Part shown: positions 3,941-28,578 of the stretch, one piece after another
Numbering within the stretch: position 1 is the stretch's first letter
Layout of the letters: each line of letters begins with the position of its first letter
NCBI RefSeq assembly: GCF_015521605.1
Contig: NZ_WANV01000040.1
Span: 1-34,375 of the forward strand
Direction: 5' to 3'
Source of the DNA: Thermococcus sp.
GTDB lineage: Archaea > Methanobacteriota_B > Thermococci > Thermococcales > Thermococcaceae
Length of the DNA stretch: 34,375 nt
Made by a program: the position numbers and the translations under genes
Notes under the pieces: model-generated
The model's database searches: none
Told to the model about the DNA's origin: nothing
What the model saw: only the letters and a program-made list of their open reading frames with translations

Positions 3941-4810
3941 ATGGACGGCGTAGTACTCGGAGTTCTTGCGGCACTGACATCGGCGGTCTCATGGGCCACA
4001 TCAACGATACTGATAAAAGCAGGGATGAAAAACAAGAGCCCCGTTACCGCCAATATATTCCGTCTCTACGCCGTCTCGGTGATGTTCGTTGTTGTCTTCC
4101 TGATAGACGGCACGTTCTCCAAAATAGCCGAACTCTCACCGACCCTCCTTGCCGTGGCCTTCATTTCGGGACTCTTCGGCTTCGTCATAGGCGACTATTT
4201 CTACCTAAACGCCCTGAAGATTATGGGGGTCTCCAGAACGGTCCCCATAACATCGACGTATCCCCTGTGGACAATACTGTGGGCATTTCTTTTCCTCGGG
4301 CGGAGGATAAGCCCCCAGGTGGTGATAGGGGCAATCCTGGTCGTTACCGCCATAATCGTGGTTCGCAGGGCTGAGGAGGAAGAACGGGTCGACCCTAAAG
4401 GCTTTATCTTCGCCCTCCTCGCTCCCCTCTCATGGAGCTTTGCAATACTCACTATGGACTGGCTGACCGGATACGTGGACGTTCTGTCCCTCGCGGGAAT
4501 TAGAATGATGTTTGCGGCGATCGGGGTTTCGGTGTTCCTCCCCAAGTACCGGAGGGAGTTGAGAGAAATAACCCTAAGAGAGGCCCTGCTCCTGACAGGG
4601 GCGGCCTTTACAGGGCTCATGCTGGGGCAGTACCTCTTCGTGTATTCAATAAACCAGGTAGGCTCCCAGATATCGGCTCCAGTTTCCGCGGTAAATCCCA
4701 TAATAGCCTCGGCTCTCGCGATAGTCCTGCTGAAAGAACCTCCGAACAAGAAGATACTGGAGGGCCTCGTTCTGGCCGTGCTTGGAGTCGTGCTTATCTC
4801 GACCGCTTAA
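3941..4810 (+). CDS. EamA/DMT-family transporter
   Basis: A 289-residue membrane protein with ten hydrophobic segments arranged as two five-helix halves, the hallmark of the drug/metabolite transporter (EamA) superfamily. Each half carries the family's pattern: an N-terminal helix with SAVSWATSTILIKAG, then a mid-half SxTYPLWTIL-type motif (half 1) and the corresponding SQISAPVSAVNPIIASALA (half 2). The linker around RRAEEEERVDPKG is polar and probably cytoplasmic. Members export or import small metabolites such as amino acids and nucleotides; the substrate is not deducible here. The ATG at 3941 sits about 27 nt after a TATA box. The stop is followed within two bases by the promoter of the H/ACA RNA. 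Confidence 0.88.
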   Translation: MDGVVLGVLAALTSAVSWATSTILIKAGMKNKSPVTANIFRLYAVSVMFVVVFLIDGTFSKIAELSPTLLAVAFISGLFGFVIGDYFYLNALKIMGVSRTVPITSTYPLWTILWAFLFLGRRISPQVVIGAILVVTAIIVVRRAEEEERVDPKGFIFALLAPLSWSFAILTMDWLTGYVDVLSLAGIRMMFAAIGVSVFLPKYRRELREITLREALLLTGAAFTGLMLGQYLFVYSINQVGSQISAPVSAVNPIIASALAIVLLKEPPNKKILEGLVLAVLGVVLISTA

Positions 4811-4819
4811 CTTTTAAGC
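4811..4819 (+). promoter_or_regulatory. TATA box of the H/ACA RNA
   Basis: CTTTTAAGC immediately follows the EamA stop codon. Its centre predicts transcription from about 4840, shortly before the first hairpin. Confidence 0.5.
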
Positions 4820-4839: not shown

Positions 4840-5003
4840 CGCCGACAGCGAGGGGACAACATGTCTCCTCGCACGGGCTCGGTCAACCCGCCTCCGCGAG
4901 GTATCGGGTTCAGTGAGCGGAGCGTGCTCACGCCGAGCCCACAGGGCCGGGAGCATCCACCCGCGCGAGGGAATGAACGCGGGCCTCTGTGCCCGGCCCA
5001 CAC
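4840..5003 (+). ncRNA. Two-hairpin box H/ACA pseudouridylation-guide RNA
   Basis: Two consecutive hairpins each end in ACA. Hairpin 1 has lower stem GGGCTCGG (4875-4882) with CCGAGCCC (4933-4940), upper stem CTCCGC (4892-4897) with GCGGAG (4917-4922), and ACA at 4941-4943. Hairpin 2 has lower stem GGGCCGGG (4944-4951) with CCCGGCCC (4992-4999), upper stem CCCGCG (4960-4965) with CGCGGG (4978-4983), and ACA at 5000-5002. Both apical regions carry GA ... TGA, the L7Ae-binding K-turn/K-loop of archaeal H/ACA RNAs. Each has an unpaired pocket between its stems. The distance from upper stem to ACA is 16 nt in hairpin 2 (typical) and 18 nt in hairpin 1 (slightly long). A further 11-bp hairpin (4848-4872) precedes them. 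Ends are estimated from the TATA box and the last ACA. It may correspond to one of the Hgc/Pf-type RNAs of Pyrococcus. Confidence 0.85.
4848..4872 (+). ncRNA. 11-bp hairpin at the 5' end of the H/ACA RNA
   Basis: GCGAGGGGACA pairs with TGTCTCCTCGC (one G-T pair) around an ACA triloop. It lacks the internal pocket of a guide hairpin and has no ACA box directly after it. It may cap or stabilise the transcript. Confidence 0.6.
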
Positions 5004-5067
5004 TTCGACCCTCTTCTGAGGAAGGCTTATAACCTCCAAGACTGAAATAAATAACTGGTGGTTATGT

Positions 5068-5640
5068 ATGGTGACAATCCCCCGCCCCATTGACCCCAGG
5101 GAGATAAAGCGAATTAGGAAGGAGCTCGACATAACCCAGGAAGAGCTCGCCCAGAAGGCGGGTGTGACTCAGGCGTATATAGCCAAGTTAGAGGCGGGGA
5201 AAGTTGACCCGCGATTATCGACCTTCAACCGTATTCTGCAGGCCTTACTCGAATGCAAGAGGGCACAGCTCAAAGCAAAGGACGTCATGTCCTCCCCCGT
5301 TATCTCAGTTAAGCCCTACGAACTCGTCGAAAACGTCATCAGGATAATGAACGAGCACAACATCTCGCAGATTCCGGTTATCGCGGGCAATAAGGTTGTC
5401 GGTTCCGTGACGGAGCGGACTCTGGTCAGGCAGAGCCTTGAGTACGAGGATATCTACGACAGGAAAGTCATGGAGGTCATGGAAGAGCCGTTCCCGATAG
5501 TCAACGAGGACGAAGACCTTGAGGTCGTTAAATATCTCCTTGAGGAGCATCCAGCGGTTCTGGTTCAGGACAGGGAGGGAAAGGTGGCCGGGATCATAAC
5601 CCGTGTGGATATATTCAGAATCGGAAAAACGAAGGAGTAA
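5068..5640 (+). CDS. HTH (XRE) + tandem CBS-domain regulator
   Basis: A 190-residue predicted transcriptional regulator. A Cro/XRE helix-turn-helix covers residues about 10-65 (ITQEELAQKAGVTQAYIAKL). Two CBS domains follow at about 72-125 (KAKDVMSSPVISVKPYEL) and 133-188 (VMEEPFPIVNEDEDLEVV, ending GIITRVDIF). CBS pairs usually bind adenine nucleotides or S-adenosylmethionine, so the protein probably couples DNA binding to energy or methyl-donor status. This HTH-CBS architecture is common in euryarchaea. The ATG at 5068 follows GGTGG and has a TATA-like GGCTTATAACC at about 5023-5033. It stands alone between the H/ACA RNA and a surface-protein gene. Targets are unknown. Confidence 0.87.
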   Translation: MVTIPRPIDPREIKRIRKELDITQEELAQKAGVTQAYIAKLEAGKVDPRLSTFNRILQALLECKRAQLKAKDVMSSPVISVKPYELVENVIRIMNEHNISQIPVIAGNKVVGSVTERTLVRQSLEYEDIYDRKVMEVMEEPFPIVNEDEDLEVVKYLLEEHPAVLVQDREGKVAGIITRVDIFRIGKTKE

Positions 5641-19434: not shown

Positions 19435-19498
19435 TTTTTTGAGATTGCTGAGAAAAAGCTAAAATAGGGCTTGCCATCCATAATCCTTGGTGGAAGCG

Positions 19499-20299
19499 AT
19501 GAAGGTTGAGGATCAGATAGTGTTTACGGCCCATCACGGGAACTGGAAGGTGGCAGACAGGCTCCTTGATATGGAAGACGAGAAGGTGGCGCACTTCATA
19601 GCGAGTATAGCCAACACCGTCAACTCCAAGATACCCGAGTACCTCACGGAAGTCATGAACGTCGCTGGAATAATGAGCCTCGCCGAGGAGATTGGGAAAA
19701 AAGACCTGAGCGACGCTGTTGTCGCCCTTAAATCACCAGGGACTGCGAGAAAGCTCGGTCAGCTTGTTTTTGAGGAGGACAAGAAGCTCAAAAAACACCT
19801 CGTTGAGGTTGCTAAGGCCCTGCTCGTCAGGGAGGTACTGTCCAAAAAAGTGCCGGTGGAGTATCCTGAAGAGCCGCTGGGTGAGGTTAAAATAGTCTTC
19901 CCGTACAACGAAGACCACATCAACTTTGTTGCATTCCATGTGAGCGGAAAAACGAAGTGGAGGGCCGTTAGAAGACTTATTATCGATGAGAAGACTCCCA
20001 TGGCAGACGTTGCAAGACTCCTTGCGAGCATAAACGAGAGCATCACTCTTAAACTGCCACTCTACGCTGGAATCGACGTCGGCGGGATAGAGGCCTGGTT
20101 CGGAGAGTTTAAAAAGGTCAAAAAGGCCGAAATACCGGCGGTCGTTGAAAAGTACAAGCATTTCCCTGCCGAGAACTATGCTCCAGCAGACTTCCAGGAA
20201 CACGCGAGGGTTTACGCCCTGAGAACGGTCCTTGGAAAGATAGGACTGCCCCTGGACGTTCCCGCAAAGAACCTTGAGAAGTATTTGGAGAAGAAATGA
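19499..20299 (+). CDS. DUF2666-like archaeal protein with internal duplication
   Basis: A 266-residue soluble protein of unknown function that resembles the archaeal DUF2666 family. It is made of two related halves: [14 protein letters not shown] ... [20 protein letters not shown] in the first, and [15 protein letters not shown] ... [19 protein letters not shown] in the second. The alternating charged and hydrophobic pattern suggests a helical bundle. ATG 19499 follows GGTGG and is preferred to TTG 19487. It diverges from lon. Its stop codon lies inside the box C of a C/D sRNA candidate, and ridA follows 72 nt later, so the sRNA could be processed from the shared transcript. I cannot assign a biochemical role. 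Confidence 0.8.
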
Positions 20300-20350
20300 T
20301 GAGGCCGAGGACACCCGAGGGGAACCGATGAGGAGTCTTCGCTTCGCTGA
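20296..20350 (+). ncRNA. Candidate box C/D sRNA overlapping a stop codon
   Basis: C = ATGATGA (20296-20302), D' = CCGA (20315-20318, one change from CTGA), C' = TGAGGA (20329-20334) and D = CTGA (20347-20350). Both guide spacers are exactly 12 nt. The D'-C' spacer is 10 nt, rather long, and no terminal stem or dedicated promoter is visible. The C box contains the stop codon of the DUF2666-like gene. Predicted targets are CGAAGCGAAGAC (D guide) and GTGTCCTCGGCC (D' guide), neither of which I recognise. Confidence 0.6.
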
Positions 20351-20370
20351 TCCGTCGGGAGGTGGAGAAG

Positions 20371-23493: not shown

Positions 23494-23552
23494 GGCGGAT
23501 GATGACTACGGCGGATTCCCGAGCGGTGAGGAAGACCTTAGGGTCTGACGCC
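23494..23552 (+). ncRNA. Box C/D methylation-guide sRNA (predicted 23S rRNA target)
   Basis: C = ATGATGA (23499-23505), D' = CCGA (23519-23522), C' = TGAGGA (23527-23532) and D = CTGA (23545-23548). The C'-D guide is exactly 12 nt and the D'-C' spacer 4 nt. GGCG before box C pairs with CGCC after box D to form the terminal stem. A TATA box lies 25 nt upstream. The D guide AGACCTTAGGGT pairs with GGUCCUAAGGU, a segment of 23S rRNA domain IV that is nearly universal, over ten positions (two G-U). Box+5 places 2'-O-methylation on the U of CCU-AAGG. The D' guide (23506-23518) has no target I can name. Confidence 0.92.
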
Positions 23553-27640: not shown

Positions 27641-28522
27641 ATGCGGACCTTGAGAGAGCTCCCGCCCTCTGAGGTAGAGAGAATACAGGAACGTGCCCTC
27701 CAACTTCGTGAATCTGGAATGAGCTACCTAAGGATTACAAGAGAATTAGCTGAAGAGTTCAAGGTTTCCCTCTCAAAGGCAACCGTGTTACGGTGGTGCA
27801 AGGGGACACACAACACCTTCAACAAAACAAAGCGCGTTAATTTAAACCCCTCTCCCGGATTGGCATATATAATCGGAGTTTATCTTGGCGATGCTTCTAT
27901 CAGTGACAGGAATTACCAATACAGAATCCGCCTGAAGGTCGTGGACAGGGATTTTACCAACAGTTTTAAGAAGGCTATGGAATCAATAGGAGTAAATCCT
28001 AGGACTGGTTTTGAACACAATAAAGGGCGAAGCGATAGATGGTGGGTTGAGGTTACCAACAAGGAACTGTTCATGTTCTTGAAAGGTCCAGAAGAGCAGC
28101 TCTTTGAGATTGCTAGAGTGCATCCAAAGGAGTTTCTAAGGGGATTCTTTGACAGTGAGGGGAGTGTTTTTGTAGATAAAAAAGATCCAAGAAGAACCAC
28201 CATTGTGGCAGATAACTATAATACAGAAGTCCTCAAACTCTGCAAGGAGTTATTAGGAACCCTAGGAATCCACTCAACAATATATTTGGTCAAGAAAAAA
28301 GGCACAAAAGTTATGATTCGAGGACAAGAATATCAGTACAACAACGACCTTTACAGGATCAGTATCCACAGAAGAACTAGTGTTGCAAGGTTCGCGGAGA
28401 AGATAGGCTTCTCAATCTTACGAAAACAAGAGAAACTAGAAACCTTCCTCGAAGCTTTTTACCCACATACCTCCGAAAAAGATTACCACAAAATTAAGTC
28501 GTATAGCGGGGGGAGGATTTGA
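27641..28522 (+). CDS. Free-standing LAGLIDADG-type homing endonuclease-like protein with HTH
   Basis: A 293-residue protein. An N-terminal helix-turn-helix (about 10-55, [20 protein letters not shown] and VLRWCKG) is followed by a two-motif LAGLIDADG core. The first motif is [12 protein letters not shown] (catalytic Asp84) and the second [12 protein letters not shown] (Glu173). Both acidic residues are present, so nuclease activity is possible, although some family members act only in DNA or RNA binding. It is not inside an intein or intron. The last six codons and the stop run into the 3' end of tRNA-iMet on the opposite strand. The gene looks more AT-rich than its neighbours and has unlike codon use, signs of acquisition. 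It could alternatively be a domesticated regulator. Confidence 0.82.
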
Positions 28523-28578
28523 ACCTCCGACCTCCGGGTTATGAGCCCGGCGGGCACTCCTAGCTGCCCCACCCCGCT
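28504..28578 (-). tRNA. Initiator tRNA-Met (CAU)
   Basis: On the minus strand, acceptor AGCGGGG pairs with CCCCGCT, giving the archaeal initiator A1-U72 pair, with discriminator A73. The anticodon arm is CCGGG-CTCATAA-CCCGG with CAT and the three consecutive G-C pairs diagnostic of initiator tRNA. The T arm is GGAGG-TTCAAAT-CCTCC. There is no intron, and CCA is not encoded. The 3' end overlaps the convergent LAGLIDADG gene. Confidence 0.97.

Follow-up and report, generated by a model that had tools for sequence, protein, structure and literature searches.

The 34,375-nt stretch of Thermococcus sp. DNA analysed here (the window) carries an RNA gene that follows an ORF ending at 4810 and precedes one that begins at 5068. 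A first-pass annotation made from the letters had placed a double H/ACA guide RNA at 4840-5003 and had named the flanking ORFs EamA (ORF to 4810) and HTH-CBS (ORF from 5068), labels that we keep. An Rfam scan of the whole window bears out the guide RNA, with a match to RF00058, HgcF (Pab35), at 4841-5013 (+) that scores 148.5 bits (E 1.1e-34; gathering score 70 bits) and covers the full model, positions 1-168 of 168. The annotated locus is thus real, but the conserved RNA begins at 4841 and not at 4840. We regard it as almost certain that the locus is HgcF (Pab35), a catalogued archaeal two-motif H/ACA sRNA. As an H/ACA guide it belongs to a known family and is ordinary: the whole RNA including the 5' hairpin, the pockets, the targets and the clade are alike in HgcF/Pab35 and in the window locus, and nothing essential differs. 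HgcG/Pab40 (RF00064) and HgcE/Pab105 (RF00060) are H/ACA guides of the same genomes, encoded by genes separate from HgcF.

HgcF matches occur in 91 of the 115 genomes of the class, and all 91 are Thermococcaceae. Within this family, 91 of 94 genomes have a match; of the three others, two are less than 80% complete and one (G084) is at 85%. Seventy HgcF loci were read for neighbours, promoter and conservation, and a 58-sequence alignment was used for covariation. Among the 70 loci, a recognisable EamA neighbour is found in 55 and an HTH-CBS neighbour in 51. Since several loci (L028, L043, L047, L048, L053, L064 and L065) have an intact RNA with neither neighbour found, HgcF is an independent gene. 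A TATA-like box precedes the RNA in nearly all loci, with T at -27 and A at -24 in 99%; position +1 is G in 70/70 and position -1 is mostly a pyrimidine. From this combination, transcription is predicted to start at G4841 itself, and the published P. abyssi HgcF transcript begins 4 nt earlier (PMC4652768). The features of the locus are collected in Table 1.

Table 1. Features of the HgcF locus (window coordinates; 23S positions in P. abyssi numbering)
Feature	Position	Strand	Basis or remark
TATA-box core of the predicted HgcF promoter (-28 to -23 from 4841)	4813-4818	+	70-locus conservation
HgcF (Pab35) H/ACA guide RNA, start to last ACA box	4841-5002	+	Rfam RF00058
5' arm GCCGACAGCGAGG, complement of 23S 2590-2602; 4841-4847 a single-stranded, putative toehold	4841-4853	+	13/13 pairs
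5' hairpin, 11 bp here, sequestering nt 8-18 of the arm	4848-4872	+	folds in all 70 loci
ACA at 15 nt distance from the RNA's 5'-terminal nucleotide; candidate box of a half-motif	4856-4858	+	invariant
H/ACA hairpin 1 (Pab35.1)	4875-4943	+	covariation, conservation
Hairpin 1 3' guide GCUCACG	4926-4932	+	pairs with CGUGAGC before U2672
H/ACA hairpin 2 (Pab35.2)	4944-5002	+	covariation, conservation
Hairpin 2 5' guide GCAUCC	4953-4958	+	pairs with GGAUGC after U2697-C
Hairpin 2 3' guide CUCUGU	4985-4990	+	pairs with ACAGAG before U2549

The two tandem hairpins of the first-pass annotation, each with K-turn/K-loop bases, a pocket and a terminal ACA, are both found. Hairpin 1 has a lower stem 4875-4883/4932-4940 and an upper stem 4892-4897/4917-4922, with a K-element formed by GA 4898-4899 and UGA 4914-4916 and the ACA at 4941-4943. 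Hairpin 2 has a lower stem 4944-4951/4992-4999 and an upper stem 4960-4965/4978-4983, with a K-loop formed by GA 4967-4968 and UGA 4974-4976 and the ACA at 5000-5002. With lower stems of 8-9 bp (8 bp had been annotated), an internal pocket, a K-element and the ACA after 15 nt, both correspond to the archaeal H/ACA motif, for which we asked for a lower stem of 7-9 bp, a pocket, a K-turn or K-loop and an ACA 14-16 nt from the upper stem. None of the 70 loci departs from UGA in either hairpin or from GA in hairpin 2, while hairpin 1 has either G or A at 4898; little or no variation is seen in the 3' strands of the two pockets. In Pyrococcus, the upper stem of hairpin 2 has a bulged base that is absent from the window locus and from most Thermococcus loci.

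The predicted fold has an energy of -92.6 kcal/mol, compared to -69.6 ± 4.6 kcal/mol in 200 shuffles (z = -5.05). In the 58-sequence alignment, 97.1% of the cells in the four H/ACA helices are paired, a value that falls to 49% when the partner is shifted by one column. The stems also covary, as a guide RNA at this place had been expected to do: both sides have changed in 14 of 29 pairs, compared to 4.0 in shuffles, and none of 500 shuffles reaches 14. The competing fold suggested for hairpin 1, in which 4913-4918 pairs with 4926-4931, is part of the minimum free energy structure of the single sequence but is not conserved in relatives. L059 and L075-L077 break it by lacking TGAGC, whereas pairing of the canonical upper stem is retained in 98.5% of cells. 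According to published work, P. abyssi H/ACA guides including Pab35 bind L7Ae, Cbf5, Nop10 and Gar1 and guide pseudouridine formation. By analogy with Pab35 and its relatives, L7Ae would sit on the K-turn or K-loop of each hairpin, and Cbf5, Nop10 and Gar1 would assemble there.

Targets were sought in the 23S rRNA of relatives; the 23S gene of the window genome is missing from its assembly. The published P. abyssi 23S number equals our own coordinate minus 26, with genome G025, whose HgcF locus agrees exactly with the coordinates published, taken as P. abyssi, and with this offset 11/11 tested positions (ten from papers, and 2697) fall on U. The assembly of the window genome itself (G000) was found to hold part of the 16S gene only (contig C15, 1-736; L031, L032) and no 23S, its rRNA operon being apparently broken at the contig end.

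The pockets of both hairpins are complementary to the 23S sites published for them, so that the uridines expected for a working guide are found in each case. For hairpin 1, the 3' guide matches the seven bases directly before U2672 (7 bp), and the 5' guide AACC (4885-4888) matches GGUU after U-G; L2672 is the published target of Pab35.1. For hairpin 2, the six bases before U2549 are paired and the 3' side contributes one bp, as in the published fit, L2549 being the published target of Pab35.2. Each pocket would offer a 23S uridine to Cbf5, U2672 in hairpin 1 and U2549 in hairpin 2. Hairpin 2 also fits ACAGG-U2697-C-GGAUGC, with UCUGU pairing to ACAGG and the full 5' guide forming 6 bp, and U2697 may be its second target. 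The target formula annotated for hairpin 2, AGG-U-N-TGGATGCT, corresponds to this second site (23S ACAGG-U-C-GGATGCT) except for one surplus base, an extra T. That given for hairpin 1, CACG-U-N-GCGGGTTGA, was out of register, and the pocket fits CGTGAGC-U-G-GGTT at L2672 instead. Taken literally, the annotated target strings are absent from 23S and 16S.

The RNA begins with a further hairpin. The first-pass annotation had seen it as an extra 11-bp hairpin and as unusual; it is indeed present but is a regular part of the family, being contained in the Rfam model and in 70/70 loci. It is held by compensatory changes, with CG/TA exchanges at 4849 and GC/TA exchanges at 4855. The conservation of this 5' module is lopsided: the arm strand is nearly invariant, and more variation is seen in the loop and the 3' strand. 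Over the 70 loci, the first 18 nt (GCCGACAGYGRGGGKACA) are variable at four positions only, and the leading bases 4841-4847 are unpaired yet invariant. The ACA at 4856-4858 is conserved in 70/70 loci; 4858 is unpaired in 67 of them, and 4856-4857 are unpaired in 14-16. The name 'Pab35.3' used in PMC4652768 was considered as a designation of this hairpin and is read here as a slip, HgcG having three ACA hairpins and the text of that paper naming Pa40.3.

Nucleotides 1-13 of HgcF are the exact reverse complement of 23S CCUCGCUGUCGGC (P. abyssi 2590-2602). We take this segment to be equivalent to about 2498-2510 of E. coli, in the peptidyl-transferase loop. It is the longest rRNA-complementary run in HgcF, the runner-up having 9 nt. 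All 13 pairs (Watson-Crick or G-U) can form in 70/70 loci and none is broken: all 13 are Watson-Crick in 41 loci, one is a G-U in 28 and two are G-U in the remaining one, leaving 12 and 11 Watson-Crick pairs, respectively. The rRNA stretch is invariant, and covariation between arm and rRNA therefore gives no test of the pairing; the changes at 4849 and 4851 can also be accounted for by the hairpin alone. No comparable conserved rRNA-complementary leader of 12-13 nt is present in HgcE or HgcG.

How often such a match would arise by chance was estimated in several ways. Dinucleotide shuffles reach 13 in 24 of 20000 cases for the 32-nt module and in 74 of 4000 (~0.02) for the whole RNA. In Thermococcaceae DNA, chance 13-mers occur at ~6e-5 per strand position (~36 scattered clusters in 591,000 positions), which corresponds to ~1e-3 when the module as a whole is considered and to 6e-5 when the match must fall exactly on +1. 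In a set of 16 genomes, occurrences of the 13-mer lie in 23S and, antisense, at HgcF +1, and in few places besides; a reversed control pattern has no occurrences in the same 16 genomes. The impression gained from the window, that 13-mer rRNA matches lie only in guide RNAs, did not hold, with 43 other clusters in the 591,000 strand positions of relatives, of which 7 lie at apparent C/D guide genes in Pyrococcus and the rest are mostly scattered. A contig scan with an 18-letter degenerate pattern of the arm gave, among the matches listed, mostly bacterial hits that are evidently due to chance.

At 85 °C, the predicted duplex with rRNA (-9.7 kcal/mol) is more stable than the hairpin (-3.6 kcal/mol). 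Owing to this difference and to the seven-base toehold standing ready, the 5' arm probably pairs with 23S rRNA. Taken together, the data seem to support a description of HgcF as a guide RNA whose 5' arm serves as a third rRNA-binding element, a joint reading to which we assign, from sequence comparison, a probability of roughly 0.65.

As to the function of the pairing, we infer the following course. The toehold GCCGACA would pair with UGUCGGC in the peptidyl-transferase centre, and the arm would then open its own hairpin by strand invasion and extend the pairing to a helix of 13 bp with 23S 2590-2602. This helix would fall between the pocket targets, with 2549 on one side and 2672 and 2697 on the other. 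The arm could thereby tether the particle to domain V and keep the stretch open while the pockets act. If this is correct, an archaeal guide RNA would make a third, extra-pocket contact to the catalytic centre of the ribosome, and guide RNAs would be linked to rRNA folding. The orphan pseudouridines 2603/2607 and 2585/2589 would also become addressable by one short mutation in a genetically tractable Thermococcus; of the whole RNA, it is the conserved 5' arm that merits experimental work. The match between arm and rRNA goes unreported in the literature on HgcF, Pab35 and the orphan sites, as far as the parts compared extend, with the original 2008 target paper outside this comparison; the priority of the finding is uncertain.

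The proposed pairing outside the pockets has a parallel, by analogy only, in snR30/U17, an H/ACA snoRNA that pairs with pre-rRNA beyond the canonical pocket (PMC7601244, PMC9176245). snR30/U17 comes from eukaryotes and pairs with 18S without modifying it, whereas HgcF is a working guide whose extra pairing would be to 23S. HgcG hairpin 1 carries GCGAGG, the 5' guide for U2588, and so addresses the same rRNA stretch as the HgcF arm over six bases. Competition for 23S 2590-2595 would be expected between HgcG hairpin 1 (L204-L209) and the HgcF 5' arm, so that the two guide RNAs may bind domain V in turn.

Alternatively, the conserved hairpin could act as a mere 5' cap in protecting or folding the transcript, with a complementarity to rRNA that is coincidental. 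The maintenance of the hairpin by compensatory changes is what such a cap would predict, and the shuffle p for the single module (~0.001) is not astronomically small. However, a cap accounts neither for the contrast between a variable loop and 3' strand and the invariance of the loop-side ACA and of the first seven bases, which are unpaired, nor for the retention of the match in 70/70 loci, and we consider this explanation doubtful.

Pairing of the arm with 23S would also bring it next to pseudouridine 2603 (2607 in T. kodakarensis), which is described as being without a known guide and as requiring Cbf5 and Gar1, and not Nop10, in vivo (PMC6138745). The arm might then be a one-sided H/ACA guide that aids or directs Cbf5 at this orphan site. 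In such an arrangement, the ACA at 4856-4858 would dock on the PUA domain of Cbf5 in a complex formed without K-turn, L7Ae or Nop10. The 5' strand that the lower stem lacks would be supplied by the rRNA, and the arm:rRNA helix would stand in for both the lower stem and the 3' guide duplex. By the H/ACA rule, as stated in the literature, the 3' guide starts at the base pairing with the nucleotide before the target and the ACA follows 14-15 nt on. The arm conforms to the 3' half of a motif in this sense: with G4841 opposite C2602, U2603 is the first rRNA base beyond the helix, and the ACA follows at exactly 15 nt, as it does in hairpins 1 and 2, and is invariant even where it is unpaired. It does not form a third canonical H/ACA motif: the predicted start at 4841 leaves no 5' half, and the 5' hairpin has neither a GA/UGA element nor a following ACA. 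Published work indicates that a lower stem, an ACA and a loop are enough for Cbf5 binding. The dispensability of Nop10 and the lack of a known guide for Psi2603 agree with the proposal, but Cbf5-Gar1 is also reported to modify a small fragment with U2603 in vitro in the absence of any guide (PMC6138745), and the arm has no upper stem and no K-turn. Because the geometry was fitted after the fact and the opposite end of the helix is in register for U2588 as well, we rate a guiding role at 2603 as unlikely. Were it true, K-turn-free, one-sided pseudouridylation guiding would exist beside two or three neighbouring pocket sites.

A second orphan, pseudouridine 2585 (2589 in T. kodakarensis), lies 5 nt from the arm helix. 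The arm and the 3' strand of its hairpin could conceivably open an alternative rRNA hairpin, CGAGG-CUUGCUA-CCUCG, and present its loop, which would make the arm the missing RNA for this site. Published data have Psi2585 depending on L7Ae, Cbf5, Nop10, Gar1 and an RNA from total RNA of unassigned identity, with an active gel fraction described as lacking a new H/ACA RNA, and CGAGG/CCUCG is common to the arm stem and the rRNA stem. The register nevertheless misfits the U-N rule, CCUCG is lost in the GTGAGG clade, and the sRNPs of six P. abyssi guide RNAs are reported to have failed, the 5' hairpin not necessarily being in the construct, so that this assignment seems very improbable. A reading of the RNA as cis-regulatory leader to the HTH-CBS gene, which lies on the same strand with the RNA 66 nt upstream of its ORF and is kept in 51/70 loci, can hardly be right, as HgcF has its own promoter, belongs to a known guide family and stays intact while its neighbours change, with neither found in seven loci. 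The third rRNA-binding element remains the reading that we prefer for the 5' arm.

Several other small RNAs were seen in the course of the analysis. In L001, L003-L007 and L019 (Pyrococcus-type), a convergent C/D-like RNA, GATGACGA...CTGA...GTGATGA, with a 13-nt rRNA complement, lies on the opposite strand ~60-90 nt past the 3' end of HgcF. Elsewhere in the window, 23495-23551 (+) holds a probable C/D box guide RNA with GGCG...CGCC ends, box C GATGATGA and box D CTGA. It has a 14-nt perfect complement to 23S (G055 LSU 2403-2416), and its best Rfam match, snoPyro_CD, scores 25.7 bits, under the cut-off of 45. The C/D box RNA sR45 (RF01274, 68.7 bits) is found at 20292-20352 (+), where it overlaps the end of the ORF 19487-20299 and has an 11-nt 23S complement. 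A tRNA-Met gene with anticodon CAT lies at 28504-28578 (-).
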